Below are positions 1,863-48,748 of a DNA stretch of 64,000 bases, in pieces. This stretch comes from Tetraselmis striata (taxonomy: Eukaryota > Chlorophyta > Chlorodendrophyceae > Chlorodendrales > Chlorodendraceae): positions 1-64,000 of the forward strand of contig VCJN01000215.1 in assembly GCA_006384855.1 (NCBI GenBank), given 5' to 3'. The notes beneath the pieces were generated by a model. It did no database searches. It was not told the origin of the DNA and worked only from the letters and a program-made list of their open reading frames with translations. A program made the translations under genes and the position numbers. Within the stretch, counting starts at the first letter, position 1, and each line of letters starts with the position of its first letter.

Positions 1863-2487
1863 CACTGTGAGATTCAGATGTGACATACGGGTGAAGAAGC
1901 ACTACTACTAGCGACTATTATTTATCCGTGAAGGCTGCTGCTGGTGGCGGCACGTCCATCCAGTTACGTGCGAGTACATCCGGCGTTATTGCCGGCGGGC
2001 GATAAATCCTTTTTGTAATCATTCTGGTAGTCGTACTAGCCCTGTGACGTGTTACATGGCACTGACGTATAAGGTACAAGGTTGTCCGTGTAGTACCGGG
2101 TAGTACGCGATATATTTATTAAGCCGGTACCGGGTATCTAGTACGAACCCGGGCGCGATGACGAGTCGTCCTGTGGATAACTACGACTATTAGTACATGG
2201 GAGCGCAAATCGCAGCCGTACGTATTTGGTAACAGTGGGGAGTTTTGTGTACATTATACCTAGAACTGCTGAACGGGCCTGCCAGCCGTCCGATCAAAGG
2301 TCATCAGATGGGCGGTTTGGCTGCCATGTTTTGCCAAAGAGCGCTCACGTTACATAAATATTCGCGAGGGGGGGGGGGGGGCGGGGGCAGGCAGCGGTTT
2401 GCCGAAGAATGTTTGAATTACAATATTCGCGACAGCTGCCGTCGGGGCATGTGGCGGGGGGCGGGGGGGGGGGGGGGGGGGGGGGGG

Positions 2488-3069
2488 CTACTGCTTGTTC
2501 TTGTTCTTGCGTGCCCGGGGGACCCTCCGCTTCGACGATCTCGCTGCCTCCGCCTCCGCCTCCGCCTCCGCCTCCGCCTCCGCCTCCGCCTCCGACTCCG
2601 CGACCGTCAGTTTCTTACCTCGGCGCTTCTTCACTGACCTCTTCCGCTTCTTGTCATCCGTCAGTGTCTTCACCACCCCGGGAGGCTGTGCCGTCGACGA
2701 CGCCGCCATGAGCTTCCTTACCTTGGCGTCGGGACGCCCCCTGTGCCCAGACGCCCACAACAAGCCACAATCGTTTCGCCTTTAAGCGGCTGAGGATGCG
2801 GCCTCCTCGGCCACCACGAGTTGCGCCGCTGGCACTGTGGAAGCCTTGGCGTTGAGGTGGGCCTTACGGCGCTCCCGGACGAACCTGCGCGCGGCACAAG
2901 TTAGCCACGAGTGGGTGCGTGCTAATGTGGAGGGTGGAGTGTTTTGTTGCGCGCCCACCTTGTCACGCGTTTCCTCATGTCTTTCTCCTCCTCCTCGATG
3001 CCGGCGGCGCGGACACGCGAGACAACAAGGCTCGCCGCCCACTTTTGCCCGGGGGGCGAGGTCTGCCAT
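2488..3069 (-). CDS. G4, copy 1: nuclear Glu-Ala-repeat basic protein of the CACTG element
   Basis: The C-terminal exon (2488-2763) encodes a basic block (KKRKRSVKKRRGKK), a run of Glu-Ala dipeptides and a basic tail ending KNKNKQ. This looks like a nuclear, DNA- or protein-binding accessory protein. Upstream, a 74-bp GT-AG intron at 2885-2958 fits a frame passing through EKDMRKRVTR into FVRERRKAHLNAK. Between the three element copies the Glu-Ala tract changes only by multiples of three bases, which supports real coding. A TATA-like box on the minus strand (3187-3197) lies upstream. The start codon and the join between the 2782-2884 exon and the last exon are unresolved. No known family. By position it could correspond to the TnpA-like second protein of CACTA elements, which is inference. 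Confidence 0.5.
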
Positions 3070-3186
3070 GGCGCTGTGAGCGGTGAAGGGGGGGGGGGGG
3101 GCGAGGTGGAGAAACTAACACCCAGTCGACGACCGCCTTCCGCAGCAGTCAACGACACATCGGAGGCGAGGAGCAGCGCGCCACTA

Positions 3187-3197
3187 CTATTTATATG
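3187..3197 (-). promoter_or_regulatory. TATA box of G4, copy 1
   Basis: Reads CATATAAATAG on the minus strand. It is identical in all three copies at the same place upstream of G4. Confidence 0.45.
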
Positions 3198-3869
3198 CAC
3201 GTATTGTCAAGAGCGAGTCGGTGCGGCATTGTGTCGGTGTAATTTCGCAATGTGTATTGTTGAAGTAGCACGGCGTAATGAATACGCGGTTTCACCGAGT
3301 GAATCCGGGATAATATGTGCGGTAGGGCGCGCGTATATGTGCGCGACGAATGTGCGCGGATGTGCGCAGCGTTGTGCGGCGGTGTGCGGCGGTGTGCACC
3401 GATGTTAATATAGTGTGAATATTATATCGGCCGTAGACGATCGGGTCTGGCAGCACCGCCCGTGCTTGTAAATAAGCGACAATGGATCACGTCATGCTCC
3501 GGTTGTACTCCTACACTTCCTCCACTTTGGCGGGTGGGGGGGGGGGGGGGGGGGGGTCCTGTCCTTATTACTTGCATCGGTGGACGTGCTGGATATGGAG
3601 GTCACTGGGCACATCGCGTGGTTTCGGAGCAGTTCATTCGCGCCTCCTCGTCTTGTTTGCAATCGTCGCCCTAATCCAATGCAGAGTGAGTAGCGGGACA
3701 CTGTGCCCCCCCCCCCCCCCCCCCCCCCGGTTTATGTAAACAAATATCTAGCCGTGCATGCGCCGCAATCGGTACCCAATGAGCCGGGTATGTGACAGTG
3801 GTTTCGGAGCAGTGCAAGCATTCCGTGCGTGTGCACAAGCACGTACGACTGGGAATGAGGCGGGGGTTG

Positions 3870-5600
3870 CGGATGGAGTGCATTGGCGGTGCAGAGAATA
3901 GCGTGTTCCTGGGGTTTTGGCTGCATCAGACGCCGTATTCCCATCCATCCGGCACGGAATGTCCGCTTTTCACACATTTGTGTGTGAATATAGTGTGAAT
4001 ATTACGCGTCTTTTACGCCGGGTGGATGGGCATCCGGCGTCCGATGCACCCCAAGTATTTACAGCACGCTACTCTACGCACCGCCAATGCACTTCGCAAG
4101 CCCCGCCTCCATCCGCGTGGGAACCGGTAGTAAGTGTTGTTGTGTGCGCACATCGTGACAACATTACACGGTGGCAATTGCAATTAGTGGTGGATAATGT
4201 GAAGGCGTTTTCGAAATCGACAGAGAATGAGGCGGTGCTGGCGGAGTGCATTGGCGGTGCATAGAATAGCGTGTTGCTTGGGTTTTGGCTGCATCGGACG
4301 CCGTATTCCCATCAATCCGGCACGGAATGTTCGGTTTTCACACATTTGTGTGTGAATATAGTGTGACTATTACGCGTCTTTTACGCCGGTTGGATGGGCG
4401 TCCGGCATCCGATGCACCCCAATTATTTGCAGCACACTAGTCTGTGCACCGCCAGTGCACTCCGCAAGCCCCGCCTCCATCCGCGTCGGAACCGGTAGTA
4501 AGTGTTGTTGTGTGCGCACATCGTGACAACATTACACGATGGCAATTGCAATTAGCGGTGGATAATGTGAAGGCGTTTTCGAAATCGACAGAGAATGAGG
4601 CGGTGCTGGCGGAGTGCATTCGTGGTGCATAGAATAGCGTGTTGCTGGGGTTTTGGCTGCATCGGACGCCGTATTCCCATCAATCCGGCACGGAATGTTC
4701 GGTTTTCACACATTTGTGTGTGAATATAGTGTGAATATTACGCGTCTTTTACGCCGGGTGGATGGGCATCCGGCGTCCGATGCACCCCAATTATTTGCAG
4801 CACGCTACTCTACGCACCCCCAACGCACTCCGCAAGCCCCGCCTCCATCCGCGTCGGAACCGGTAGTAAGTGTTGTTGTGTGCGGACATCGTGACAACAT
4901 TACACGGTGGCAATTGCAATTAGCGGTGGATAATGTGAAGGCGTTTTCGAAATCGACAGAGAACGAGGCGGTGCTGGCGGAGTGCATTGGCGGTGCGTAG
5001 AATAGCGTGTTGCTGGGGTTTTGGCTGCATCGGACGCCGTATTCCCACCCATCCGGCACGGAATATCCGGTTTTCACACATTTGCGTGTTAATATAGTGT
5101 GAATATTACGCGTCTTTTACGCCGGGTGGATGGGCATCCGGCGTCCGATGCACCCCAATTATTTGCAGCACGCTACTCTACGCACCCCCAACGCACTCCG
5201 CAAGCCCCGCCTCCATCCGCGTCGGAACCGATAGTAAGTGTTGCTGTGTGCGCACATCGTGACAACATTACACGGTGGCGATTGCAATTAGCGGTAGATA
5301 ATGTGAAGGCGTTTTCGAAATCGACAGAGAATGAGGCGGTGCTGGCGGAGTGCATTGGCGGTGCATAGAATAGCGTGTTGCTGGGGTTTTGGCTGCATCG
5401 GACGCCGTATTCCCACCCATCCGGCACGGAATATCCGGTTTTCACACATTTGCGTGTTAATATATATAGTGTGAATATTACGTACGCGTCTTTTACGCTG
5501 GGTGAATGGGCATCCGGCGTCCGATGCACCCCAAGTATTTGCAGCACGCTACTCTACGCACCCCCAACGCACTCCGCAAGCCCCGCCTCTTTCCGCGCAG
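3870..5600. repeat. 368-bp internal tandem array, copy 1 (about 4.5 units)
   Basis: The landmark GTGTGAATATTACGCG recurs at 3993, 4361 (one base changed), 4729, 5097 and 5469, giving periods of 368, 368, 368 and 372. The unit length is not a multiple of three and the frames drift between units, so the roughly 90-codon open frames inside units are not taken as genes. Units are highly alike, suggesting recent homogenisation. The array lies between G4 and G2 in every copy. Confidence 0.9.
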
Positions 5601-5929
5601 GTCCTACGTTCCATTGTATGTATATACATACGTACATGTACTGCTCCGAAACCAGCCCAAACTTAATGAGTGCACAAGTGTAAATGGGGGGGGGGGGGGG
5701 GGATGTGGCGGCGGGGCATCCACTCACACATACCCCGGCGATGCATGACATATATTACATGCCGTGGCGGGTCGGCGGGCCGACCCGGCGGGGGGTGGGG
5801 TTCTATTCAACTACACGTGCGACAGTGTCGTTTCGTGGAGCAGTATATGTGCCCGGCCTCATTTATACCGCCCCCTACCTGCGCTGCATGGTCCACCCCT
5901 ACGAATTACTTAGCACAAACCGCCATTAC

Positions 5930-6232
5930 TTAATAGGAACCTAGCACAGCCAGGCTTATATGCCCGCTTTGCCGATCAACTTCTACGCACTTTCCGTCCC
6001 TCAACCGCCGGACATGGGGGTTAAGCCGCCAGCCTCGGCAGTTGCTTAGCCAGACTTGGCATCCCGTACCGTGTCCATGGCTTCGCAGCTCTGCCGCCGG
6101 CACACGCCGAGTCCGGCGCTTGCTGCCGCGGGGTTGCGCACGCATGCACGCACGGTAATACGCCGCCGACGCCGCCACGCTTACTTCCACCACCTTCGCC
6201 AGCCGCAGCTTCGCACGCCGTTCCGCCGACAT
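5930..6232 (-). CDS. G2, copy 1: small basic protein ORF
   Basis: A 100-codon frame starts MSAERRAKLRLAKVVE, has an Arg-rich middle (SKRRTRRVPAAEL) and ends ISLAVLGSY. It is open in all three copies; copy 2 differs by a 9-bp in-frame gain. It starts about 50 bp from divergent G3, with a poly-C/poly-G run between them. Function unknown. Its 3' part overlaps a TATAAG-like motif, so it could be regulatory DNA that happens to be open. Confidence 0.4.
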   Translation of the reverse strand: MSAERRAKLRLAKVVEVSVAASAAYYRACMRAQPRGSKRRTRRVPAAELRSHGHGTGCQVWLSNCRGWRLNPHVRRLRDGKCVEVDRQSGHISLAVLGSY

Positions 6233-6281
6233 ACGAAACACACGAATTCCCCCCCCCCCCCCCCCCCCCCGTCTCCGCGTC

Positions 6282-7175
6282 ATGTATAATATATTCGAGG
6301 CGACTATGCGGGGCGCAGCACACGCCGCGGCGTGGGTCGGCGGAGCGGCAGGCGGCGGGAGCCCTAATGGCCGGGCAGTATCCACACCCACACCGGCACC
6401 GCCGCTCACCTCCGACGCGGATGAACCGCCTCCCAAAGGAAACATGCCGGTTGGTGGTAAGCCCAGCAGGCGTGGGGTGCCGGCGCCGGTACCGGTGCGA
6501 CGGAGCTGTCGCGTCAGGAACCGCACCGCATGTGGAGCAACACATGGCGGTGCCGGCCCCACCTATGTCTAGGGCCACCTCCTCAAAACACCCCGCCACG
6601 ACGGCGTCGGCCACCGCCGACGGCGCCGTTGCGGGGGGGGGGACGCCCTGCCAGGCGACGATGATGCGCCTGGTGCGCCGCGTCAGGAGGCGGAGGAGGC
6701 CGTGGTCGAGGCGACTGATCGGGCTGAGGGGGTTGTCGAGGAGAGCGAGGCTGCGCTCGCGCCACCCGCCCCGCAGCCACCTGCGGGACATGCCGACTTG
6801 CTCGTCGCCATGTTGACCTGAGCACTACGAGCAGTGGCGGGAGGCGGCCACATGCACTATCATGTGCGTGTCCAGGCCGGACGCCCGTCATGCGTGTACT
6901 GCGGCCAACGGACGGACTGGGAGTGTTGCTGCGACGGCACCCCGGCTTTGTGCGGCCCCAAGTACCCATGCACGACGACCCATCAGCGGGCAGTCCCCTG
7001 CCCGACCACGGCCACGGTGAGGGCGGAGTTCCGCCATGTCAGGGACGCGTTCCACGACGCGACTCGCGCCGCCGTGTGTGAGGCTTCCGAGAAGGCACGC
7101 GCGGCTGGTAGGGTGCGCAGGGTGAGGCGGCGGACGGCCCAGGAGATGAAGGAGAGCGAGACATGCCGTCAGTGA
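6282..7175 (+). pseudogene. G3, copy 1: zinc-ribbon protein gene (frameshifted)
   Basis: Model: exon 1 6282-6456 (MYNIFEATMRG start), GT-AG intron 6457-6517, exon 2 6518-7175. The C-terminal part has Cys pairs in the order CxYC(V).CG, CC, LC, PC and a following His, spaced like the C-terminal zinc ribbon of piggyBac-type transposases; an alanine-rich, acidic linker precedes it. In copy 1 a G run in exon 2 (from 6632) has ten Gs where the other copies have eight, which shifts the frame. Role unknown; as a separate Zn-binding protein of a CACTA element it may bind DNA or the transposase. Confidence 0.55.
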
Positions 7176-7204
7176 GGTCGGGCCCAATGTCATTGGGTGG
7201 GGCA

Positions 7205-7352
7205 CACGGACGTGTAACACTTGCACTTTGCGCGTACTGCTGGGTTACATCCAGGCGGTGTCACACTATGCAACCGGAAAGGCTGCGTTGCTACTGCAAA
7301 CGATGCTACGCCTCACTCGGTAGCAACCGCTGCCCCGCCCATCCCACTCGCG
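7205..7352. repeat. Single unit of the 175-197-bp repeat, copy 1
   Basis: Corresponds to the unit present about three times in copy 2 (21354-21840) and twice in copy 3 (45200-45540). Confidence 0.6.
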
Positions 7353-8926
7353 TTGGCGCCGCGCTGCCCCGGCCGCCGCGCCTTGGCGCCGCGCTGCCCC
7401 GGCCGCCGCGCCTTGGCGCCGCGCTGCCCCGGCCACCGCGACTTGGCGCCGCGCTGGGTATCGAGTCCTCCCCTCCCTGGTGAGCGCGTCCACCTGCGCC
7501 TTGCGCTCGGGGCCGTCCTCCTCCGTCACATTCTGCAACCCCCACCGCGTGACGAACCACGCAGCTCCTTGCAGGCGCTTGTACATGTGCCCACGCACCG
7601 CCAGTCGCGACACCAAACGCACCACCGCTGGGGACGCGAGCTCCTTCTCGGTCATGATCGCCTTCACCCGGGCCTCCTCGAACAGCGGACCGGCGTTAAG
7701 AATGGAAAACGTTTCCATGTGGTGCAAGCAGTCCTCCATGACCCAGCCGGACTGCACCGTCACCTAGCCTGACCCTGCAGTCATGGAGGGGAATGCCGTC
7801 ACGCCCACGCCCACGCCCACGCCCGGGGGGGGGGGGGGGGGGGGGGGGTTACCTTTCGACTTCTTGGACACCGCAAACGAAGGGCGCAACCCGCGTCCAA
7901 AGTTGCTGGCTATCGGGACTAAAGCCTGGCGCCGGTCTTCCTGCTTCATACCTCGGAATCCAATGTGGCACTGCACGGTGACAAATTTCCTCCAGAAGTC
8001 CCTTCCCAAGCCAAAAAAAAACAGGTGGAACGGCGCGAGGGGGAAGAGGTTGACCATGCTGACATAGCCCAGGACCACAGGCACATGGCACACGCCATGG
8101 CAGCCAGTGTTCTGCTTGGCCTCCGCCAGCCGGGTTGTGTTGAACGCACGCCGGGCAAGGTGCGTGATTCACTGGACAAGTCATCGCCTTCATGGACGGT
8201 TACCAAGCGAGCATCCCCGTCCGCATCCACAGGGGGGTGCTCCTGGGCAGCCGCCATAGCCTCCACAACCTGCCACGCCGACCGGGCGGGTGCGTGTGAT
8301 TCCATACAACCGCAGTTGAGTGGTGCCACCAGCACGCAAGCCGGGCCCACTCACCTCTGAACGCAGAAGGTCCACAATGTCACCGTCCTCGAAAACAGCG
8401 CGCCACTGGGTCGCCCCGCCGTAGTCCTCCAACACCCACTCGGTAACGACGCCGGTTATCACGCCGTAGTGCCATACTCCCCGGAACTTCTTGGCGATGA
8501 CCTTCATGTAGAAGTCACTGGGATCGCCTTTCCGTATCACGCCCTCATCGGCAGCTTCCACGTCCGCCGGCGGCCACGCAGGCGCGTCGATGCCCATACC
8601 GTCTTCGCCAACGGGGTCCTCCCCCACACCCATCACATCGTCCTCCGAGACCGGCGCCGGCGGGCCGTTTCCGACGGCTGCAGCTACTCCTGCTGCCGCC
8701 CCTGCCGCTGCTGCTGCTGCTGCTGCCGCCCTGCTGCTGCTTGTAAAAAGGCGGCCTTGCGGTGCAACTTAGCCGCACGCTTCAACGAGTGGCTACAGTT
8801 CGGGTATTTCCGGAAGTGCCGCTCTCGCGCCGTCTTTTCACTACTGCCCGTCACGATGCCGTGGCAGTGCTTGCATGTGTACACGCCATTCTTCGACACA
8901 CTCGATATCCATCCCTCTCCCGGCAT
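7266..8926 (-). CDS. G1, copy 1: CACTA transposase with BED-type finger and Tudor-like domain
   Basis: Putative transposase of the element. From the ATG at 8926: a BED-like finger (CKHC...ARERHF..YPNC), an acidic linker, then a Tudor-like segment (FRGVWHYGVITGVV, WRAVFEDGDIVDLL), open through the linker only in this copy. Further on are blocks typical of TNP2-type (EnSpm/CACTA) transposases: FPLAPFHLFFFGLGRDFW, then RPSFAVSK, then a Trp-rich WVMEDCLHHMETFSIL. An intron after RPSFAVSKKSK contains the poly-G/C run (7825-7848). The tail carries GAAAGAARRQ repeats. I could not find the full catalytic Asp region and the BED exon is out of frame here, so this copy is likely inactive. Confidence 0.6.
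7353..7460. repeat. 30-bp minisatellite, copy 1 (about 3.5 units)
   Basis: Units read CTTGGCGCCGCGCTGCCCCG plus ten more bases. Thirty bases keep frame, so G1 gains the ten-residue repeat GAAAGAARRQ. Copy 2 has about two units and copy 3 about seventeen. Confidence 0.9.
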
Positions 8927-9414
8927 GCCTGCTGCCGCGCGCGCGCGCGGGGGGGGGGGGGGGGGGGGGGGGGTTGAGAGTTGGGGTGGATGTAGCCCAC
9001 CACCGGCAGGGAGCACAAATGCTAGTGCGCGGCTGTCCGCGCTTGGTTCAGCGGTGAGCGGCGGTGACCGCCAGGCTACCCCGTACTTCATGCGCGTGCA
9101 GGGATGTGCAGCGTTGTATATGCAGGGATGTGCAGTGATGTGCATCGATGTGCGGCGATGTGCAGTGAGTACGTGCAGCCGCCTGTACTTAGCCCGGGTG
9201 CTCCGCGTCGGCGGGCGACACGCGAGCCCGCGTGCGCATATCGATTTGATGAAATTATGGAAACGAGAAATTCATATAGTACTTTACATGTCGCGCGCGA
9301 TAGTCGTCGCTACTCGGTATGAAATCCACGTCCCTCGTCCGTCCCGTATCGTCCCCGTATGTCGTCGTTCGTCACCAGTAGGGCACACTTGCGTCACATC
9401 TGAATCTCACAGTG

Positions 9415-18948: not shown

Positions 18949-19716
18949 CTCGCACCGCCCATGCGAGCCATCCGTGGCGGGTATTTGAGACAGCGTGGTA
19001 TTTGAGGAAGTCGCGCATCAGGTCGAACTCAGCAGGGACCATGCGCCGGGCCTTATCCGGCACTGTCTCTGCTGGCGCTGGCTTGTCCGGATCGCCACGC
19101 CCATGGCCATCACGACCACGACCGCGCCCACTGTGAGATTCAGATGTGACGTAAATGTGCCCTACTGGTGACGAACGACGACATACGGGGACGATACGGG
19201 ACGGACGAGGGACGTGGATTTCATACCCAGTAGCGACGACTATCGCGCGCGACCTGTAAAGTACTATATGAATTTCTCGTTTCCATAATTTCATCAAATT
19301 GATATGCGCACGCGGGCTCGCGTGTCGCCCGCCGACGCGGAGCACCCGGGCTAAGTACAGGCGGATGTACGCACTCACTGCACATCGCCGCACATCGCTG
19401 ACCCCGCGGTGTGCGGCGATGTGCGGCACGACGGGCGGAGGTGTGGGCGGATGTAGGTGGTACGGTAGGTGGTAGGCGGTAGGTGGTGTTCGTAGGTGCG
19501 CGTTTTAATGCAGCCGCCCTAACTGCTGATGATTGTGTAACGCCCCAGCACGCGCATGAAGTACGGGGTCGCCTCACGGTCACCGCCGCTCACCGCTGAA
19601 TCAAGCGCGGACAGCCGCGCACTCGCATCTGTGTTGCCTGCCGGTGGTGGGTTACATCCATCCCAACTCTCAACCCCCCCCCCCCCCCCCCCCGCCCCCC
19701 GCGCGCGGCAGCAGGC

Positions 19717-21410
19717 ATGCCGGCAAAGGGATGGATAGCGAGTGTGTCGAAGGATGGCGTGTACTCATGCAAGCACTGCCGGGGCAACGTGACGGGCACA
19801 TGTGACAAGATGGCGCGAGAGCGGCACTTCCTAAAATTCCCGAACTGTAGCCACTCGTTGAAGCGTGCGGCTAAGTTGCGCCGCAAGGCCGCCTTATCAC
19901 AAGCAGCAGCAGCAGGGGCGGCAGCAGCAGCAGCAGCAACAACAACAGGGGCGGCAGCAGGAGTAGCTACAGCCGTCGGAAACGGCCCGCCGGCGCCGGT
20001 CTTGGACGACGGCGGCTCGAAGGTGGACGATGTGATGGGCGTGGGGGAGGACCCCGTTGGCGAAGACGGTATGGACATCGACGCGCCTGCGTGGCCGCCG
20101 GCGGGCGTGGAACCCGCGATGAGGGCGTGATACGGGAAGGCGATCCCGGCGACTTCTACATGAAGGTCATCGCCAAGAAGTTCCGGGGAGTATGGCACTA
20201 CGGCGTGATAACCAGCGTCGTTACCGAGTGGGTGTTTGTTAGGGTTACCACTATTAGGGTAACCCTAACAGTGTTGGAGATCTACGGCGGGGCGACCCAG
20301 TGGCGCGCTGTTTTCGAGGACGGTGACATTGTGGACCTTCTGCGTTCCGAGGTGAGTGGGCCCGGCTTGCGTGCTGGTGGCACCACTCAACTGCGGTTGT
20401 ATGGAATCACACGCACCCGTCTGCTCGGCGTGGCATGTTGTGGAGGCTATGGCGGCTGCCCAGGAGCACCCCCCTGTGGATGCGGACGGGGATGCTCGCT
20501 TGGTAACCGTCCATGAAGGTGATGACTTGTCCAGTGAATCACGCACCTTGCCCGGCGTGCGTTCAACACAACCCGGCTGGCGGAGGCCAAGCAGAACACT
20601 GGCTGCCATGGCATGTGCCATGTGCATGTGGTCCTGGGCTATGTCAGCATGGTCAACCTCTTCCCCCTCGCGCCGTTCCACCTGTTTTTTTTGGCTTGGG
20701 AAGGGACTTCTGGAGGAAATTTGTCACCGTGCAGGGCCACATTGGATTCCGAGCTATGAAGCAGGAAGACCGGCGCCAGGCTTTAGTCCCGATACCCAGC
20801 AACTTTGAACGCGGGCTGCGCCCTTCGTTTGCAGTGTCCAAGAATCGAAAGGTAAACCCCCCCCCCCCCCCCCCCCCCCCCGGGCGTGGGCGTGGGCGTG
20901 GGCGTGACGGCATTCCCTTCCATGACTGAAGGGTCAGGCAAGGTGACGGTGCAGTCCGGCTGGGTCATGGAGGACTGCTTGCACCACATGGAAACGTTTT
21001 CCATTCTTAACGCCGGTCCGCTGTTCGAGGAGGCCCGGGTGAAGGCGATCATGCCCGAGAAGGAGCTCGCGTCCCCAGCGGTGGTGCGTTCGGTGTCGCG
21101 ACTGGCGGTGCTTGGGCACATGTACAAGCGCCTGCAAGGAGCTGCGTGGTTCGTCACGCGGTGGGGGTTGCAGAATGTGGTGACGGAGGAGGACGGCCCC
21201 GAGCGCAAGGCGCAGGTGGACGCGCTCACTAGGGAGGGGAGGACTCGATACCCAGCGCGGCGCCAAGGCGCGGCGGCCGGGGCAGCGCGGCGCCAAGGCG
21301 CGGCGGCCGGGGCAGCGCGGCGCCAACGCGAGTGGGATGGGCGGGGCAGCGGTTGCTACCGAGTGAGGCGTAGCATCGTTTGCAGTAGCAACGCAGCCTT
21401 TCCGGTGTGA
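19717..21410 (+). CDS. G1, copy 2: CACTA transposase with BED-type finger and Tudor-like domain
   Basis: ATG 19717 opens a BED-like finger (YSCKHCRGNV...ERHFLKFPNCS), a basic helix and a Gln/Ala-rich acidic linker. A one-base loss near 20120 relative to copy 1 breaks the link to the Tudor-like segment (FRGVWHYGVI, FEDGDIVDLLRSE), which ends at a strong donor (20352 GTGAGT). Downstream are the TNP2-like blocks GLGRDFWRKFVTV, IGFRAMKQEDRR, RPSFAVSKNRK (to 20851), an intron 20852-20942 holding the poly-C run, then VTVQSGWVMEDCLHHMETFSIL and VRSVSRLAVLGHMYKR. The T run near 20686 has eight Ts against nine in copies 1 and 3. The C-terminus has two GAAAGAARRQ units. Family assignment rests on motif layout, not a search. 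Confidence 0.6.
20237..20270. repeat. 34-bp telomere-motif palindrome with 5-bp target duplication
   Basis: Present only in copy 2. The insert has 13-bp perfect inverted arms starting TGTTAGGGTTACC and is flanked by GTGTT on both sides (20232-20236 and 20271-20275); the other copies have GTGTT once. Insert plus duplication is 39 bp, so the G1 frame is kept. Confidence 0.85.
20857..20880. repeat. Poly-C run inside G1 intron, copy 2
   Basis: A poly-C run directly after the splice donor, followed by GGGCGT repeats. The matching runs in copies 1 and 3 differ in length. Confidence 0.9.
21258..21330. repeat. 30-bp minisatellite, copy 2 (about 2 units)
   Basis: Same unit as at 7353-7460 and 46140-46641, within the G1 C-terminal coding region. 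Confidence 0.85.
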
Positions 21411-21840
21411 CGCCGCCTGGATGTAACCCAGCAGTACGCGCAAAGTGCAAGTGCAAGCTGCTGATGGCGGGGATCCCGCGCGGGGGGGGGGGGGGGGGGG
21501 GGCTGTGGGATAGGCGCGGCAGCGGTTGCTACAGAGTGAGGCGTTGCATCGTTTGCAGTAGCAACGCAGCCTTTCCGGTTGCATAGTGTGACGCCGCTTG
21601 GATGTAACCCAGCAGTACGCGCAAAGTGCAAGTGCAAGCTGCGGGTGGCGGGGATCCACGCGAGATCGCGAGGGGTGGGGGGGGGGGGGGGGGGGCAGCG
21701 GCTGTGGGATAGGCGGGGCAGCGGTTGCTACCGAGTGAGGCGTAGCATCGTTTGCAATAGCAACGCAGCCTTTCCGGTTGCATAGTGTGACGCCGCTTGG
21801 ATGTAACCCAGCAGTACGCGCAAAGTGCAAGTGTTACACG
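21354..21840. repeat. 175-197-bp tandem repeat, copy 2 (about 3 units)
   Basis: The phrase TAGCAACGCAGCCTTTCCGG recurs at about 21384, 21559 and 21756. Two units are separated by poly-G runs (21481-21501 and 21676-21694). It lies between the convergent 3' ends of G1 and G3. Confidence 0.8.
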
Positions 21841-21875
21841 TCCGTGTGCCCCACCCAATGACATTGCGCCCGACC

Positions 21876-22727
21876 TCACTGACGGCATGTCTCGCTCTCC
21901 TTCAGCTCCTGGGCCGTCCGCCGCCTCACCATGCGCACCCTACCAGCCGCGCGTGCCTTCTCGGAAGCCTCACACACGGCGGCGCGAGTCGCGTCGTGGA
22001 ACGCGTCCCTGACATGGCGGAACTCCGCCCTCACCGTGGTCGTGGTCGGGCAGGGGACTGCCCGCTGATGGGTGGCCATGCATGGGTACTTGGGGCCGCA
22101 CAAAGCCGGGGTGCCGTCGCAGCAACACTCCCAGTCCGTCCGTTGGCCGCAGTCCACGCATGACGGGCGTCCGGCCAGGACACGCACATGATAGTGCATG
22201 TGGCCGCCTCCCGCCACTGCTCGTAGTGCTCCGGTCAACATGGCGACGAGCAAGTCGGCATGTCCCGCAGGTGGCTGCGGGGCGGGTGGCGCGAGCGCAG
22301 CCTCGCTCGCCTCGACAACCCCCTCAGCGCGATCAGTCGCCTCGACCACGGCCTCCTCCGCCTCCTGACGCGGCGCACCAGGCGCATCATCGTCGCCTGG
22401 CAGGGCGTCCCCCCCCGCAACGGCGCCGTCGGCGGTGGCCGACGCCGTCGTGGCGGGGTGTTGTGAGGAGGTGGCCCTAGACCTAGGTGGGGCCGGCACC
22501 GCCATGTGTTGCTCCACATGCGGTGCGGTTCCTGACGCGACAGCTCCGTCGCACCAGTACCGGCGCCGGCACCCCACGCCTGCTGGGCTTACCACCAACC
22601 GGCATGTTTCCTTTGGGAGGCGGTTCATCCGCGTCGGAGGTGAGCGGCGGTGCCTGTGTGGGTGTGGATACTGCCCGGCCATTAGGGCTCCCGCGCCCCG
22701 CATAGTCGCCTCGAATATATTATACAT
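21876..22727 (-). CDS. G3, copy 2: zinc-ribbon protein (open throughout)
   Basis: A 283-codon frame from ATG 22727 to a stop at 21876. The C-terminal third has CVDCGQRTDWECCCDG, then ALCGPKYPCMATHQ: a Cys/His pattern like the cross-brace zinc ribbon at the C-terminus of piggyBac-type transposases. After it comes a basic helix ending QELKESETCRQ. The middle is acidic and Ala/Pro-rich. Copies 1 and 3 fit a two-exon model with a 61-67-bp intron; here a 40-bp loss in exon 1 makes the unspliced frame open instead. The gene is convergent with G1 and divergent from G2. Function not known; a DNA-binding accessory protein is plausible. Confidence 0.6.
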   Translation of the reverse strand: MYNIFEATMRGAGALMAGQYPHPHRHRRSPPTRMNRLPKETCRLVVSPAGVGCRRRYWCDGAVASGTAPHVEQHMAVPAPPRSRATSSQHPATTASATADGAVAGGDALPGDDDAPGAPRQEAEEAVVEATDRAEGVVEASEAALAPPAPQPPAGHADLLVAMLTGALRAVAGGGHMHYHVRVLAGRPSCVDCGQRTDWECCCDGTPALCGPKYPCMATHQRAVPCPTTTTVRAEFRHVRDAFHDATRAAVCEASEKARAAGRVRMVRRRTAQELKESETCRQ

Positions 22728-22773
22728 GACGCGGGGACGGGGGGGGGGGGGGGGGGGAATTCGTGCGTTTCGT

Positions 22774-23085
22774 ATGTCGGCGGAACGGCGTGCGAAGCTG
22801 CGGCTGGCGAAGGTGGTGGAAGTAAGCGTGGCGGCGTCGGCGGCGTCGGCGGCGTATTACCGTGCGTGCATGCGTGCGCAACCCCGCGGCAGCAAGCGCC
22901 GGACTCGGCGTGTGCCGGCGGCAGAGCTGCGAAGCCATGGACACGGTACGGGATGCCAAGTCTGGCTAAGCAACTGCCGAGGCTGGCGGCTTAACCCCCA
23001 TGTCCGGCGGTTGAGGGACGGAAAGTGCGTAGAAGTTGATCGGCAAAGCGGGCATATAAGCCTGGCTGTGCTAGGTTCCTATTAA
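22774..23085 (+). CDS. G2, copy 2: small basic protein ORF
   Basis: A 103-codon frame (MSAERRAKLRLAKVVE start) with one extra Ala-Ser-Ala triplet compared with copies 1 and 3, an in-frame difference. Arg-rich, no known domain. It is separated from divergent G3 by a poly-G run (22740-22757) that may lie in a shared promoter. Confidence 0.4.
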   Translation: MSAERRAKLRLAKVVEVSVAASAASAAYYRACMRAQPRGSKRRTRRVPAAELRSHGHGTGCQVWLSNCRGWRLNPHVRRLRDGKCVEVDRQSGHISLAVLGSY

Positions 23086-23489
23086 GTAATGGAGGTTTGT
23101 GCTAAGTAATTCGTAGGGGTGGACCATGCAGCGCGAGTAGGGGGCGGTATAAATGAGGCCGGGCACATATACTGCTCCACGAAACGACACTGTCGCACGT
23201 GTAGTTGAATAGACGCCCCCCCCCCCCCCCCCGCCCGCCGGGTCGGCCCGCCGGGTCGGCCCGCCGACCCGCCACGGCATGTAATATCTGTCATGCATCG
23301 CCGGGGTATGTGTGAGTGGATGCCCCGCCGCCACATCCCCCCCCCCCTCCCATTTACACTTGTGCACTCATTAAGTTTGGGCTGGTTTCGGAGCAGTACA
23401 TGTACGTATGTAAATACATACAATGGAACGTAGGACCTGCGCGGAAAGAGGCGGGGCTGGCGGAGTGCGTTGGGGGTGCGTAGAGTAGC

Positions 23490-24907: not shown

Positions 24908-24918
24908 CATATAAATAG
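24908..24918 (+). promoter_or_regulatory. TATA box of G4, copy 2
   Basis: CATATAAATAG, identical in all three copies at the same distance upstream of G4. Confidence 0.45.
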
Positions 24919-25039
24919 TAGTGGCGCGCTGCTCCTCGCCTCCGATGTGTCGTTGACTGCTGCGGAAGGCGGTCGTCGACTTGGTGTTAGTTTCTCCACC
25001 TCGGCCGCCCCCCCCCCCCCCCCCCCCCCACCTTCACCG

Positions 25040-40609: not shown

Positions 40610-41353
40610 CACTGTGAGATTCAGATGTGACATACAGGTGACGAAGCACTACTACTAGCGACTATTATTTATCCGTGAAGGCTGCTGCTGGTGGCGGCAC
40701 GTCCATCCAGTTACGTGCGAGTACATCCGGCGTTATTGCCGGCGGGCGATAAATCCTTTTTGTCATCATTCTGGTAGTCGTACCAGCCCGGTGAAGCGTA
40801 CATGGCACTGACGTACAAGGTACAAGGTTGTCCGTGTAGTACCGGGTAGTACGCGATATATTTATTACGCCGGTACCGGGTATCTAGTAATCCGGTACCG
40901 GCTCATGCAATTATATCTAGTACGAACCCTAGTCGTCCTGTGGATAACTACGACTATTAGTACATGGGAGCGCAAATCTCAGCCGTACTTTTTGGCCAAA
41001 GTGGGGAATTTTGTGTACATTATAGCTAGTACTGCTGAACGGGCCTGCCAGCCGTCCGATCAAAGGTCATCAGATGGGCGGTTTGGCTGCCATGTTTTGC
41101 CAAAGAGTGCTCACGTTACATAAATATTCGCGAGGGGGAGGGCGGGGGCAGGCAGCGGTTTGCCGAAGAATGATTGAATTACAATATTCGCGACAGCTGC
41201 CATCGGGGAATGTGGCCCGCCGGGGGGGGGGGGGGGGGGGGTGCGGGGGCGGGGGGACCACGCCCGCCCCCCCCCCCCCCCCCCGCCCCCCCTCGCCGCC
41301 AGCCGCTCCCGCCTGGGGGTGGGGGGGGGGGGGGGGGGGTAAGGGGGCGGGGG

Positions 41354-42010
41354 CTACTGCTTGTTCTTGTTCTTGCGTGCCCGGGGGACCCTCCGCTTCG
41401 ACGATCTCGCTGCCTCCGCCTCCGCCTCCGCCTCCGCCTCCGCCTGCGCCTCCGACTCCGCCTCCGACTCCGCGACCGTCAGTTTCTTACCTCGGCGCTT
41501 CTTCACTGGCCTCTTCCGCTTCTTGTCATCCGTCAGTGTCTTCACCACCCCGGGAGGCTGTGCCGTCGACGACGCCGCCATGAGCTTCCTTACCTTCGCG
41601 TCGGGACGCCCCCTGTGCGCAGACACCCACAACAAGCCACAATCGTTTCGCCTTTAAGCGGCTGAGGATGCGGCCTCCTCGGCCACCACGAGTTGCGCCG
41701 CTGGCACTGTGGAAGCCTTGGCGTTGAGGTGGGCCTTACGGCGCTCCCGGACGAACCTGCGCGCGGCACAAGTTAGCCACGAGTGGGTGCGTGCTAATGC
41801 GGAGGATGGAGTGTTTTGTTGCGCGCCCACCTTGTCACGCGTTTCCTCATGTCTTTCTCGTCCTCCTCGATGCCGGCGGCGCGGACACGCGAGACAACAA
41901 GGCTCGCCGCCCACTTTTGCCCGGGGGGGCGAGGTCGGCCATGGCGCTGTGAGCGGTGAAGGGGGGGGGGGGGGGGCGGGGGGGGGGGGGGGGGGGGGGG
42001 GGCGGCCGAG
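41354..42010 (-). CDS. G4, copy 3: nuclear Glu-Ala-repeat basic protein
   Basis: C-terminal exon 41354-41635 with KKRKRPVKKRRGKK, a Glu-Ala run of intermediate length and the KNKNKQ end. The upstream exon (EKDMRKRVTR, then the 74-bp intron) is conserved. Start codon unresolved; the 5' part has two long poly-G runs (41960-42002). See copy 2 for the model. Confidence 0.5.
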
Positions 42011-42091
42011 GTGGAGAAACTAACACCCAGTCGACGACCGCCTTCCGCAGCAGTCAACGACACATCGGATGCGAGGAGCAACGCGCCACTA

Positions 42092-42102
42092 CTATTTATA
42101 TG
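42092..42102 (-). promoter_or_regulatory. TATA box of G4, copy 3
   Basis: CATATAAATAG on the minus strand, as in the other copies. Confidence 0.45.
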
Positions 42103-42385
42103 CACGTATTGTCAAGAGCTAGTCGGTGCGGCATTGTGTCGGTGTAATTTCGCAATGTTTATTGTTGAAGTAGCACGGCGTAATGGATACGGCGAGTGAA
42201 TCCGGGATAATGTGTGCGACGAATGTGCGCGCGCAGCGTTGTGCGGCGGTGTGCGGCGGTGTGCGGCGGTGTGCGGCGGTGTGCACCGATGTTAATATAG
42301 TGTGAATATTATATCGGCCGTAGACGATCAGGTCTGGCAGCACCGCCCGTGCTTGTAAATAAGCGACAATGGGTCTAGTCTCCCG

Positions 42386-43640
42386 CTAGTCTGTGCACCG
42401 CAAGTGCACTCCGCAAGCCTCGCCTCCATCCGCGTCGGAACCGGTAGTAAGTGTTGTTGTGTGCGCACATCGTGACAACATTACACGGTGGCAATTGCAA
42501 TTATTAGCGGTGGATAATGTGAAGGCGTTTTCGAAATCGACAGAGAATGAGGCGGTGCTGGCGGAGTGCATTGGCGGTGCATAGAATAGCGTGTTGCTGG
42601 GGTTTTGGCTGCATCGGACGCCGTATTCCCACCCATCCGGCACGGAATGTCCGGTTTTCACACATTTGTGTGTTAATAAAGCAGTGTGAATATTACGCGT
42701 CTTTTACGCCGGGTGGATGGGCATCCGGCGTCCGATGCACCCCAATTATTTGCAGCACGCTACTCTACGCACCCCCAACGCACTCCGCAAGCCTCGCCTC
42801 CATCCGCGTCGGAACCGGTAGTAAGTGTTGTTGTGTGCGCACATCGTGACAACATTACACGGTGGCAATTGCAATTAGCGGTGGATAATGTGAAGGCGTT
42901 TTCGAAATCGACAGAGAATGAGGCGGTGCTGGCGGAGTGCATTGGCGGTGCATAGAATAGCGTGGTGCTGGGGTTTTGGCTGCATCGGACGCCGTATTCC
43001 CACCCATCCGGCACGGAATGTCCGGTTTTTACACATTTGTGTGTTAATAAAGTGTGAATATTACGCGTCTTTTACGCCGGGTGGATGGGCATCCGGCGTC
43101 CGATGCACCCCAATTATTTGCAGCACGCTACTCTACGCACCCCCAACGCACTCCGCAAGCCTCGCCTCCATCCGCGTCGGAACCGGTAGTAAGTGATGTT
43201 GTGTGCGCACATCGTGACAACATTACACGGTGGCAATTGCAATTAGCGGTGGATAATGTGAAGGCGTTTTCGAAATCGACAGAGAATGAGGCGGTGCTGG
43301 CGGAGTGCATTGGCGGTGCATGGAATAGCGTGGTGCTGGGGTTTTGGCTGCATCGGACGCCGTATTCCCACCCATCCGGCACGGTATGTCCGGTTTTCAC
43401 ACATTTGCGTGTGAATATATATAGTGTGAATATTACGTACGCGTCTTTTACGCTGGGTGGATGGGTATCCGGCGTCCGATGCACCCCGAATCTCACCAAC
43501 ACGCTACTCTACGCACCCCCAACGCACTCCGCCAGCCCCGCCTCTTTCCGCGCAGGTCCTACGTTCCATTGTATGTATATACATACGTACATGTACTGCT
43601 CCGAAACCAGCCCAAACTTAATGAGTGCACAAGTGTAAAT
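42386..43640. repeat. Internal tandem array, copy 3 (about 3 units of about 370 bp)
   Basis: CGTCTTTTACGC recurs near 42699, 43068 and 43443. Same unit and orientation as copy 1. Confidence 0.88.
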
Positions 43641-43923
43641 GCGGGGGGGGGGGGGGGGGTGGGGGGGGGGTGTGTGGCGGCGGGGCATCCACTCACACAT
43701 ACCCCGGCGATGCATGACAGATATTACATGCCGTGGCGGGTCGGCGGGCCGACCCGGCGGGCCGACCCGGCGGGGGGGGGGGGGGGGGGGGGGCGTCTAT
43801 TCAACTACACGTGCGACAGTGTCGTTTCGTGGAGCAGTATATGTGCCCGGCCTCATTTATACCGCCCCCTACCTGCGCTGCATGGTCCACCCCTACGAAT
43901 TACTTAGCACAAACCGCCATTAC

Positions 43924-44226
43924 TTAATAGGAACCTAGCACAGCCAGGCTTATATGCCCGCTTTGCCGATCAACTTCTACGCACTTTCCGTCCCTTAACC
44001 GCCGGACATGGGGGTTAAGCCGCCAGCCTCGGCAGTTGCTTAGCCAGACTTGGCATCCCGTACCGTGTCCATGGCTTCGCAGCTCTGCCGCCGGCACACG
44101 CCGAGTCCGGCGCTTGCTGCCGCGGGGTTGCGCACGCATGCACGCACGGTAATACGCCGCCGACGCCGCCACGCTTATTTCCACCACCTTCGCCAGCCGC
44201 AGCTTCGCACGCCTTTCCGCCGACAT
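43924..44226 (-). CDS. G2, copy 3: small basic protein ORF
   Basis: A 100-codon frame, MSAERRAKLRLAKVVE to ISLAVLGSY, nearly identical to copy 1. The run that separates it from G3 is only eight Cs here. Confidence 0.4.
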   Translation of the reverse strand: MSAERRAKLRLAKVVEISVAASAAYYRACMRAQPRGSKRRTRRVPAAELRSHGHGTGCQVWLSNCRGWRLNPHVRRLRDGKCVEVDRQSGHISLAVLGSY

Positions 44227-44260
44227 ACGAAACGCACGAATCCCCCCCCGTCCCCGCGTC

Positions 44261-45156
44261 ATGTATATTATATTCGAGGCGACTATGCGGGGCGCAGCAC
44301 ACGCCGCGGCGTGGGTCGGCGGAGCGACAGGCGGCGGGAGCCCTAATGGCCGGGCAGTATCCACACCCACACAGGCACCGCCGCTCACCTCCGACGCGGA
44401 TGAACCGCCTCCCAAAGGAAACATGCCGGTTGGTGGTAAGCCCAGCAGGCGTGCGTGGGGTGCCGGCGCCGGTACTGGTGCGACGGAGCTGTCGCGTCAG
44501 GAACCGCACCGCATGTGGAGCAACACATGGCGGTGCCGGCCCCACCTATGTCTAGGGCCACCTCCTCACAACACCCCGCCACGACGGCGTCGGCCACCGC
44601 CGACGGCGCCGTTGCGGGGGGGGACGCCCTGCCAGGCGACGATGATGCGCCTGGTGCGCCGGGTCAGGAGGCGGAGGAGGCCGTGGTCGAGGCGACTGAT
44701 CGGGCTGAGGGGGTTGTCGAGGCGAGCGAGGCTGCGCTCGCGCCACCCGCCCCGCAGCCACCTGCGGGACATGCCGACTTGCTCGTCGCCATGTTGACCG
44801 GAGCACTACGAGCAGTGGCGGGAGGCGGCCACATGCACTATCATGTGCGTGTCCTGGCCGGACGCCCGTCATGCGTGGACTGCGGCCAACGGACGGACTG
44901 GGAGTGTTGATGCGACGGCACCCCGGCTTTGTGCGGCCCCAAGTACCCATGCATGGCGACCCATCAGCGGGCAGTCCCCTGCCCGACCACGGCCACGAAG
45001 AGGGCGGAGTTCCGCCATGTCAGGGACGCGTTCCACGACGCGACTCGCGCCGCCGTGTGTGAGGCTTCCGAGAAGGCACGCGCGGCTGGTAGGGTGCGCA
45101 GGGTGAGGCGGCGGACGGCCCAGGAGCTGAAGGAGAGCGAGACATGCCGTCAGTGA
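44261..45156 (+). pseudogene. G3, copy 3: zinc-ribbon protein gene (nonsense codon)
   Basis: ATG 44261; the two-exon model of copy 1 applies, with an intron from about 44436 to 44502. The G run in exon 2 has the in-frame eight Gs, but a TGA replaces a Cys codon inside the zinc ribbon (44908-44910), removing its second half. Otherwise the same as copy 2. Confidence 0.55.
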
Positions 45157-45199
45157 GGTCGGGCGCAATGTCATTGGGTGGGGCACACGGACGTGTAAC

Positions 45200-45333
45200 A
45201 CTTGCACTTTGCGCGTACTGCTGGGTTACATCCAAGCGGTGTCACACTATGCAACCGGAAAGGCTGCGTTGCTACTGCAAACGATGCTACGCCTCACTCG
45301 GTAGCAACCGCTGCCCCGCCTATCCCACAGCCG

Positions 45334-45370
<37 letters not shown>

Positions 45371-45540
45371 GCGCACCGTCCTGCGACCTCGCGTGGATCC
45401 CCGCCACCAGCAGCTTGCACTTGCACTTTGCGCGTACTGCTGGGTTACATCCAGGCGGCGTCACACCGGAAAGGCTGCGTTGCTACTGCAAACGATGCTA
45501 CGCCTCACTCGGTAGCAACCGCTGCCCCGCCCATCCCACT
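45200..45540. repeat. 175-197-bp tandem repeat, copy 3 (about 2 units)
   Basis: Two units separated by a poly-C run (about 45338-45368). Same unit as 21354-21840. Confidence 0.8.
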
Positions 45541-46139
45541 CGGGATGCTGAGAGCAGCTAAAGGGCACCGGGGGCGGGGCAAGAGGGAGCAGGGCCAATG
45601 ATTGTGGAAGAGCGGGGACCCGCTTGCATGCCATCGTATTATATCTTGCACAATATCTGTTGCTGCACTCATATCTCACATCACTAGCTTAGCTATAGTG
45701 ATTCCCCCCCCCCCCCCCCCCCCCCCCCCCCCGCACCGCGGACGCACAAGCCTGGGTATACGCATCAACTGCCCGCCGGGATGAGAAACTGGTATTGGTA
45801 GTGTGTCTGTGGGGTGGAGGGGGGGCAAAAGAGCTGCCAATTGCTGCCAAGCTGGTGCGTTACATTGGGGCAGGCGCTGGGCAGACAATTGGGGCTCGCT
45901 TCAGAGCATTGTCTAGTGCCTATGCGGCTGCGCCGCCTCCGCCGCATGCAGACTCTCCGAGCTCACCAGCACCGCCACCTCAGTCATGCGGCCCTGCATC
46001 CCGCAGCCCGCCGCCGCCAGCCAGATCAGAGGTATCCAGAAGCCAGTGCTGGGGTTGTTGCGGCATGACCGCATAGTTTTCAGCGCCTGCCGTCCACAAC
46101 TTGTAATGCATCCCTTTCCGCCGATTCCGCTGTATGCGC
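45541..46139 (+). mobile_element. About 600-bp insert in copy 3, related to 11700-12190
   Basis: Interrupts the junction between the 175-197-bp repeat and the 30-bp minisatellite; copies 1 and 2 lack it. It matches 11700-12190 in inverse orientation and keeps the KELPIAAKLVRYIG frame. A poly-C run lies at about 45705-45732. Terminal repeats not evident. Confidence 0.6.
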
Positions 46140-48138
46140 TGTCTTGGCGCCGCGCTGCCCCGGCCGCCGCGCCTTGGCGCCGCGCTGCCCCGGCCGCCGC
46201 GCCTTGGCGCCGCGCTGCCCCGGCCGCCGCGCGTTGGCGCCGCGCTGCCCCGGCCGCCGCGCCTTGGCGCCGCGCTGCCCCGGCCGCCGCGCCTTGGCGC
46301 CGCGCTGCCCCGGCCGCCGCGCCTTGGCGCCGCGCTGCCCCGGCCGCCGCGCGTTGGCGCCGCGCTGCCCCGGCCGCCGCGCGTTGGCGCCGCGCTGCCC
46401 CGGCCGCCGCGCCTTGGCGCCGCGCTGCCCCGGCCGCCGCGCCTTGGCGCCGCGCTGCCCCGGCCGCCGCGCGTTGGCGCCGCGCTGCCCCGGCCGCCGC
46501 GCCTTGGCGCCGCGCTGCCCCGGCCGCCGCGCCTTGGCGCCGCGCTGCCCCGGCCGCCGCGCGTTGGCGCCGCGCTGCCCCGGCCGCCGCGCCTTGGCGC
46601 CGCGCTGCCCCGGCCGCCGCGCCTTGGCGCCGCGCTGGGTATCGAGTCCTCCCCTCCCTAGTGAGCGCGTCCACCTGCGCCTTGCGCTCGGGGCCGTCCT
46701 CCTCCGTCACCACATTCTGCAACCCCCACCGCGTGACGAACCACGCAGCTCCTTGCAGGCGCTTGTACATGTGCCCAAGCACCGCCAGTCGTGACACCGA
46801 ACGCACCACCGCTGGGGACGCGAGCTCCTTCTCGGGCATGATCGCCTTCACCCGGGCCTCCTCGAGGAGCGGACCGGCGTTAAGAATGGAAAACGTTTCC
46901 ATGTGGTGCAAGCAGTCCTCCATGACCCAGCCGGGCTGCACCGTCACCTTGCCTGACCCTGCAGTCATGGAGGGGAATGCCGTCACGCCCACGCCCACGC
47001 CCACGCCCGGGGGGGGGGGGGGGGGGGGGGGGGGAGGGGTTTACCTTTCGATTCTTGGACACTGCAAACGAAGGGCGCAACCCGCGTTCAAAGTTGCTGG
47101 GTATCGGGACTAAAGCCTGGCGCCGGTCTTCCTGCTTCATAGCTCGGAATCCAATGTGGCCCTGCACGGTGACAAATTTCCTCCAGAAGTCCCTTCCCAA
47201 GCCAAAAAAAAACAGGTGGAACGGCGCGAGGGGGAAGAGGTTGACCATGCTGACATAGCCCCGGACCACATGCACATGGCACACGCCATGGCAGCCAGTG
47301 TTCTGCTTGGCCTCCGCCAGCCGGGTTGTGTTGACCGCACGCCGGGCAAGGTGCGTGATTCACTGGACAAGTCATCGCCTTCATGGACGGTTACCAAGCG
47401 AGCCTCCCCGTCCGCATCCACAGGGGGGTGCTCCTGGGCAGCCGCCATAGCCTCCACAACCTGCCACGCCGACCGAGCGGGTGCGTGTGATTCCATACAA
47501 CCGCAGTTGAGTGGTGCCACCAGCACGCAGGCCGGGCCCACTCACCTCTGAACGCAGAAGGCCCACAATGCCCCCGTCCTCGAAAACAGCGCGCCACTGG
47601 GTCGCCCCGCCGTAGTCCTCCAACACCCACTCGGTAACGACGCCGGTTATCACGCCGTAGTGCCATACTCCCCGGAACTTCTTGGCGATGACCTTCATGT
47701 AGAAGTCGCCGGAATCGCCTTTCCATATCACGCCCTCATCGCGGGTTCCACGCCCGCCGGCGGCCACGCAGGCGCGTCGATGTCCATACCGTCTTCGCCA
47801 ACGGGGTCCTCCCCCACGCCCATCACATCGTCCACCTTCGAGCCGCCGTCGTCCGAGACCGGCGCCGGCGGGCCGTTTCCGACGGCTGCAGCTACTCCTG
47901 CTGCCGCCCCTGTTGTTGTTGCTGCTGCTGCTGCCGCCCCTGCTGCTGCTGCTTGTGATAAGGCGGCCTTGCGGCGCAACTTAGCCGCACGCTTCAACGA
48001 GTGGCTACAGTTCGGGAATTTTAGGAAGTGCCGCTCTCGCGCCATCTTCTCACAAGTGCCCGTCACGTTGCCCCGGCAGTGCTTGCATGAGTACACGCCA
48101 TCCTTCGACACACTCGCTATCCATCCCTTTGCCGGCAT
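45913..48138 (-). CDS. G1, copy 3: CACTA transposase with BED-type finger and Tudor-like domain
   Basis: ATG 48138 opens the BED-like finger (YSCKHCRGNV...ERHFLKFPNCS). The linker has the same one-base loss as copy 2 before the Tudor-like part (FRGVWHYGVITGVV). The TNP2-like part reads VSMVNLFPLAPFHLFFFG with nine Ts (in frame), GLGRDFWRKF, RPSFAVSKNRK, then the poly-G intron (47009-47034), then GWVMEDCLHHMETFSIL. The tail has about 17 ten-residue repeats and then reads into the 600-bp insert, stopping at 45913. Probably not a working transposase. Confidence 0.6.
46140..46641. repeat. 30-bp minisatellite, copy 3 (about 17 units)
   Basis: Perfect 30-bp periodicity. Units differ at one site (CCT or CGT), giving a Gly/Arg pattern on the coding strand that roughly repeats every three units. 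It encodes GAAAGAARRQ-type repeats in the G1 tail; the other strand is also open for the same reason. Confidence 0.97.
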
Positions 48139-48748
48139 GCCTGCTGCCGCGCGCGAGGGGCGGGGGGGGGGGGGGGGGGGGGTTGAGAGTTGGGGTGGAT
48201 GTAACCCACCACCGGCAGGCAACACAGATGCGAGTGCGCGGCTGTCCGCGCTTGATTCAACGGTGAGCGGCGGTGACCGTGAGGCGACCCCATACTTCAT
48301 GCGCGTGCTGGGGCGTTACACAATCATCAGCAGTTAGGGCGGCTGCATTAAAACGCGCACCTACGAACACCACCTACCGCCTACCACCTACCGTACCACC
48401 TACATCCGCCCACACCTCCGCCCGTCGTGCCGCACATCGCGGCACACCGCGGGGTCAGCGGTCAGCGATGTGCGGTCAGCGATGTGCGGCGATGTGCAAT
48501 GAGTGCGTACATCCGCCTGTACTTAGCCCGGGTGCTCCGCGTCGGAGGGCGACACGCGAGCCCGCGTGCGCATATCAATTTGATGAAATTATGGAAACGA
48601 GAAATTCATATAGTACTTTACAGGTCGCGCGCGATAGTCGTCGCTACTGGGTATGAAATCCACGTCCCTCGTCCGTCCCGTATCGTCCCCGTATGTCGTC
48701 GTTCGTCACCAGTAGGGCACATTTACGTCACATCTGAATCTCACAGTG

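Follow-up and report, generated by a model that had tools for sequence, protein, structure and literature searches.

Three copies of a CACTA-type element at the locus

The 64,000-bp window analyzed in this study (positions 1 to 64,000 of contig VCJN01000215.1 of Tetraselmis striata, referred to as contig C168; G+C content, 59%) contains three copies of a single CACTA-type transposable element: c1 at 1863..9414 (plus strand; 7552 bp), c2 at 19129..26297 (minus strand; 7169 bp), and c3 at 40610..48748 (plus strand; 8139 bp), the orientation of c2 being opposite to that of c1 and c3. Each copy was bounded by perfect 22-bp terminal inverted repeats with the sequence CACTGTGAGATTCAGATGTGAC (0 mismatches in 6/6 ends), and the 3-bp target site duplications (TSDs) were ATG, GCC, and CGA, respectively. 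An earlier note on this DNA had given these copies, coordinates, inverted ends, and duplications exactly, and its assignment to the CACTA type was borne out by the CACTG ends and 3-bp duplications. The same note had also read four conserved proteins in each copy, and this was not supported: as described below, the window copies are probably non-autonomous, internally deleted derivatives of a CACTA/EnSpm-like transposon, moved by a fuller class of copies.

Copy number, divergence, and target site duplications

In the searched genome (224,097,584 bases in 2,903 contigs), the exact 22-bp end was found 1,868 times (994+874), and 1250+1143 times with up to three mismatches; a reversed-pattern control gave 0 in both searches. 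The first 100 listed ends contained 31 head-to-tail pairs, 28 of which were shorter than 10 kb (median, 8,027 bp). Twenty of these 28 were fetched and, together with the three window copies, formed a comparison set of 23 complete copies. Since these copies differed by 0.4-5.2% over 6,433 well-aligned columns, with c1 and L051 as the two most diverged, their spread was recent, in agreement with the recent movement that the earlier note had deduced from high similarity. All 23 had CACTG..CAGTG termini, by which the 20 fetched copies had been selected. A 3-bp duplication was present in 12 of the 23 (3/3 in the window and 9/20 among the fetched copies), and the probability of 12 or more by chance, at 1/64 per copy, was ~2e-16.

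Coding pieces and the common deletion

The four proteins proposed by the earlier note were a transposase (G1), a zinc ribbon (G2), a 'small basic protein' (G3), and a 'Glu-Ala basic protein' (G4). Each open reading frame (ORF) piece indeed occurred in 22 or 23 of the 23 copies in the same order, in many of them without interruption. On one strand (minus in c1 and c3), a zinc-finger-like piece was followed by a small β-rich piece, two pieces resembling a transposase, and, distally, G3 and G4.

The pieces resembling a transposase were remnants. The first (m4; c3 47045..47335, minus) surrounds the likely second catalytic position and starts beside a deletion junction that was the same in 22/22 readable window-type copies when single-base differences around it were allowed. 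In c3, a stop immediately upstream of this junction closes the m4 frame; therefore, the deletion, through which the N-terminal part was lost, apparently broke the frame, unless the stop is bypassed by splicing. At the likely second catalytic position (c3 47219-47221, minus), the Asp codon was replaced by TTC (Phe) in 22/22 readable copies, giving LAPFHL vs LAPDHL in the copy L061. The second remnant (m5; c3 46651..46968, minus; WVMEDCLHHMETFSILN...) lies downstream of that position and runs into a minisatellite where another copy, L062, goes on. Transposase-like sequence was thus present where the earlier note had placed a transposase, in the form of an internally deleted remnant with Phe for Asp. 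These shared features trace the window-type copies back to a single founder.

The N-terminal zinc-finger-like piece of the transposase gene (c3 47950..48138, minus) was matched in 23/23 copies and was uninterrupted at near full length in 22. We took it to be BED-like, a label for which the searches gave no support, including Pfam BED, which did not match this piece. Two types of the piece differed at many residues within nearly identical flanking DNA, and some of the 23 copies looked mosaic. The small β-rich piece (c3 47546..47755, minus), followed by a GTGAGT donor, was in a different frame from the preceding piece in 20/22 readable copies; this frame change was absent from c1 and L051. It was presumed to be Tudor/chromo-like, again without support from the searches. 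AlphaFold without an alignment predicted five strands, with a mean predicted local distance difference test score of 74 in the best of five models (67.5 to 49 in the others), and Foldseek returned no match to this model at E≤0.001; Tudor-like therefore remains a label.

G3 (c3 41657..41878, minus) and G4 (c3 41357..41581, minus) were the first and second halves, in the same frame, of a single downstream exon on the transposase strand, cut by a TAA (c3 41654..41656, minus). This triplet was TAA in 21, CAA in 1, and not found in 1 of the 23 copies, and read TGG in L061. The sole Pfam family listed for the six frames of c3 was DUF2011 (E 0.027), in the Glu-Ala-rich ORF.

A zinc-ribbon-like ORF, probably the G2 of the earlier note, ran opposite to the transposase (c3 44767..45153, plus) and was interrupted by a TGA in c3, whereas the ORF in c2 (21876..22727, minus) was uninterrupted and encoded 283 amino acids (aa) with an ATG. 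Among 19 gap-free copies, stops were found in c3, L052, and L060, and the ratio of nonsynonymous to synonymous substitution rates (dN/dS) between chosen pairs was 0.23-1.21. The zinc-ribbon-like character was our assumption, with no support from profile, sequence, or fold searches: there was no noteworthy Pfam or PDB sequence match, and the AlphaFold model was poor (50.5). The proposal that two of the four proteins bind zinc was not supported.

Fuller copies and the transposase gene

Transposase parts lost from the window copies were found in L060, L061, and L062, between the pieces that the window copies retain. At the site of the window transposase pieces, L060 had another part of the gene, consisting of an N-terminal segment and a CPKGC...HCPEY segment. 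L061 contained the N-terminal segment, an apparent intron, and an open exon of ~420 codons ending in m4 with LAPDHL, while L062 ran through m5 into NLHSAVCRMIHQMHG and LWMENLMGFLKAGAKRVLPKN. We read these parts of L061 and L062 as the second Asp and the His and Glu regions of a CACTA transposase, an assignment that Pfam does not confirm; the D, H, and E contexts appeared plausible for a DDE triad, which in CACTA/EnSpm has C(2)C and H(3-4)H between the second D and the E. All 140 candidates from a search with the L060 segment were scored, and 134 matched; three of the matches (33-38% identity) were other families, and remote homologues at 33-44% were present in the same genome.

With m4 of L061 as the query (150 of 1,250 candidates scored), 61 copies were at least 90% identical and two were 87-88% identical, and the other listed copies did not exceed 85%, nor did those of the window. 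These 63 nearest copies were defined as the fuller class. Seventeen of them (including L061) were identical over 96 residues of m4, Asp included, and 57 of the 63 m4 rows contained no stop, with stops in the other 6; therefore, the fuller class had also spread recently. An N-terminal segment lay within 2 kb in 60/63 copies (at 1.2-1.5 kb, and in 59 of these at 1.23-1.37 kb), a Glu-region piece within 1.2 kb of m4 in 57/63, and both, regularly spaced, in 54. Candidates for the full-length autonomous member that the earlier note had suggested looking for are these 63 copies, 54 of which have all three marker pieces. Open frames of at least 700 aa surrounded m4 in 10 of the 63, and in nine of these ten the frame around the Glu-region piece was of equal length; the exception was on contig C900, the source of L062. 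A ~30-bp minisatellite (c3 ~46150-46640, read by eye) varied in length between copies, and may be the reason why some frames around m4 stay open for so long (up to 1,754 aa). The genome thus contains a recently spread class whose core is co-linear, and this class is the likely source of transposase for the window copies. The arrangement suggests one transposase gene and one oppositely oriented putative ORF per fuller copy, close to the classical two-ORF CACTA element.

Throughout the stretch read, which stops ~173 bp before the left end, L061 continued to match window-type DNA. Seven copies carrying the N-terminal segment lay on contigs for which the listing of exact ends was complete, and these were checked for a nearby end; in C19 and C70, an exact end was located ~1.3-1.4 kb from the segment, close to the expected ~1.5 kb.

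L060 and L061 also represented further founder deletions. In L061, the combined G3/G4 exon followed m4 after a deletion, and neither m5 nor the antisense ORF was found in the 3,001 bases read. In another deletion class (33 listed copies), a constant spacing separated the N-terminal ORF from the adjacent end of the Glu-region piece. The system consists of one fuller class and several founder deletion classes, of which that of the window is probably the largest.

Selection on the coding pieces

For each piece, the ratio of nonsynonymous to synonymous polymorphism (pN/pS) was estimated from 9 to 30 gap-free sequences drawn from a total of 43 copies and partial loci. The values were 0.47-1.92 by distinct variants and 0.45-4.01 when weighted by copies, and no clear purifying selection among copies was observed for any piece. 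Copies as recent as these would show such uninterrupted pieces whether they were genes or not. With these values, a single exon for G3 and G4, and a remnant in place of the transposase, the claim of four conserved protein-coding ORFs could not be maintained; the results that the earlier note had named beforehand as evidence against its own reading were obtained in part, in that dN/dS was near 1 for the ORFs and the duplication was missing from 11 of the 20 fetched copies.

Between window-type copies and L061 or L062, dN/dS for m4 and m5 was 0.60-1.65. Three small comparisons hinted at constraint: the N-terminal segment of L060 vs L061 (dN/dS 0.34; 5 synonymous, 6 nonsynonymous), the opening part of the G3/G4 exon (1 synonymous, 0 nonsynonymous), and a late exon of L060 vs L062 (2 synonymous, 0 nonsynonymous). 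The Tudor-like piece of L051 vs L060 (0 synonymous, 6 nonsynonymous) counted against it. The zinc finger differed between L051 and L060 by 18 nonsynonymous and 3 synonymous changes, counts too small to claim diversifying selection.

Subterminal regions and additional sequences

The left subterminal region of c3 (40632..41009) was rich in CCGGTAC/GTACTA motifs. Four copies were examined for such repeats: CCGGTA had 5-8 occurrences within a 378-bp stretch at the left end of c3, L042, and L051 (0.3-0.6 expected), GTACTA occurred five times in the left region of c1, and a different motif, ATGTGC, occurred five times at the right end of c1, c3, and L042 (~1 expected). An internal tandem array of ~370-bp units was seen in c3 (42384..43552). 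An optional 485-bp module (c3 45539..46023, minus), matched in 18/23 copies, was 78% identical to window positions 11706-12194, outside the elements; the surroundings of the latter had one more copy at 98% (C1885) and one partial copy at 85% (40 of 1,053 candidates scored). Window positions 10900-11323 were a piece of another abundant repeat of ~437 bp, with 86% identity at 37 of 40 scored places.

A 13-kb pair of ends on C142 was considered as an autonomous element and rejected because the 9,001 bases read were an ordinary copy without its left end, beside a 1.5-kb tandem repeat. In L059 (~4700-9001), a ~1.52-kb tandem repeat adjoined an element missing its left end.

Relationship to known transposons

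The dSpm and I-type derivatives of maize En/Spm carry internal deletions, keep the ends and subterminal regions, and are mobilized in trans. The window copies had the same kind of internal deletion with retained ends, and mobilization in trans would apply to them by inference. They differed in two respects: these 7-9 kb derivatives are more numerous than the fuller copies, and they contain extra DNA.

CACTA/EnSpm (CMCT) elements have 5'-CAC..GTG-3' ends and 3-bp TSDs (PMC12730594), and plant CACTA elements can contain internal tandem arrays (PMC8978399). The present family shared the ends, the 3-bp TSD, left subterminal repeats, a probable transposase with a second ORF, and internal tandem arrays. 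Unlike CACTA/EnSpm, its core was not recognized by Pfam Transposase_21 (TNP2), and it has N-terminal parts that we presume to be zinc-finger-like and Tudor-like. The 485-bp module, which resembles low-copy sequence outside the element, recalls the Pack-CACTA elements (PMC8903248), in which a host gene exon lies captured between CACTA ends; here the likeness is one of sequence, and would fit transfer in either direction. Plavaka, a related transposase class, has 2-3 bp TSDs and TGT..ACA or CATCA..TGATG ends (PMC12730594). It was rejected because the ends here are CACTG; PF18759 gave no match, and its control was silent. KDZ (Zisupton; 8-bp TSD) was rejected on the 3-bp TSD, PF18758 giving no match with a silent control. 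Relatives were sought in viral contigs and prokaryote genomes, and none was confirmed; no published family of this kind was recognized in a literature search judged by titles.

Discussion

The deletion shared by the window-type copies, their replaced Asp, and the presence of a fuller class in the same genome are best explained by derivation and mobilization in trans. The fuller copies would produce a transposase with a zinc-finger-like and Tudor-like N-terminus followed by a DDE-type core; this protein would bind the ends common to all classes and cut and paste them, and a single crippled copy, to judge by the sequence patterns, would have been multiplied in trans. G1, G3, and G4 would be same-strand pieces, most simply of one transposase gene, and G2 a separate antisense putative ORF.

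Several observations weigh against this explanation. The DDE assignment depends on motif patterns, with no fold or profile match: no Pfam transposase was found in the six frames of c3 at E≤1 or in exon peptides, and no Transposase_21 in the core pieces of L060, L061, and L062 at E≤10. Genome searches for PF02992, PF18758, and PF18759 were also empty, but because their controls were silent too, they are not evidence of absence. Since the Transposase_21 profile was not matched, the family is CACTA-like by structure, and its assignment to a transposase is probable without profile support. The Asp is known for 17 of the 63 fuller copies, from L061 itself and from the 16 others identical to it. L062, the sole copy read across the Glu region, had one frame change between NLHSAVCRMIHQMHG and LWMENLMGFLKAGAKRVLPKN. 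Among the seven copies checked for ends, the exact end was at 2.4 kb in C8, and none was found in C76, C105, C123, and C142; because C8, C76, and C123 belong to the 63, the ends of the fuller class may differ somewhat from CACTGTGAGATTCAGATGTGAC. A genome search with the 22-bp end, as suggested by the earlier note, confirmed a large family, but the duplications at other insertions were missing from 11 of the 20 fetched copies in spite of perfect ends (L040, L041, L043, L045, L049, L050, L051, L053, L055, L056, and L057), two of which share one base. Their absence may reflect inter-copy recombination, joins made in the assembly, or loss.

The retained order and many uninterrupted pieces would also be expected of an autonomous family in which four conserved proteins allow every copy to move itself. 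We regard this as highly improbable: uninterrupted short ORFs are expected at just 1-5% divergence, pN/pS was 0.47-1.92, a stop splits G3 from G4 in 21/22 readable copies, where TGG in L061 speaks against separate genes, and the common junction (22/22), with the m4 frame of c3 closed just upstream, and the replaced Asp (22/22) affect the presumed transposase itself. It is unlikely, to a lesser degree, that the non-autonomous window copies are moved by a transposase from a different CACTA family and that the 63 fuller copies are no more than relatives. The three fuller copies without an exact end at the expected place and the remote transposase homologues in the genome are in its favor, whereas the fuller class is itself recent (17 identical over 96 residues, 57/63 without a stop) and L061 matches window-type DNA almost to the left end.

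The truncated zinc-finger/Tudor-like proteins of the deletion derivatives may also serve as transposition repressors or titrators. When the 192-aa N-terminal ORF of L051 was used as the query (150 of 2,210 candidates scored), approximately two-thirds of the listed matches had no stop by eye, and 89 of 148 listed had no N-terminal core piece within 1.5 kb; however, the frame change breaks the piece in 20/22 readable window-type copies, and dN/dS between L051 and L060 was 1.16. This role is very unlikely. A broader proposal, a deeply diverged CACTA-like clade in which zinc-finger-like and chromatin-reader-like (Tudor/chromo) domains are fused to a DDE core and many deletion derivatives, with coding capacity for the two N-terminal domains alone, act as trans regulators of the family, appears quite doubtful.

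The four-gene reading is corrected: when transposon copies are very recent, short ORFs that run without interruption cannot be taken as evidence for genes. Within this one genome, a fuller class, counted at 63 copies with one marker, coexists with founder deletion classes, and one of the latter, recognizable by its single junction, has become widespread. As far as the sequences indicate, this would be an ordinary two-component CACTA-like system with a transposase unrecognized by Pfam, and the repeats in the window are probably copies of one crippled version that needs some sixty fuller relatives to move. Because the transposase core escapes Pfam, such families may be missed or mislabeled in other genomes.

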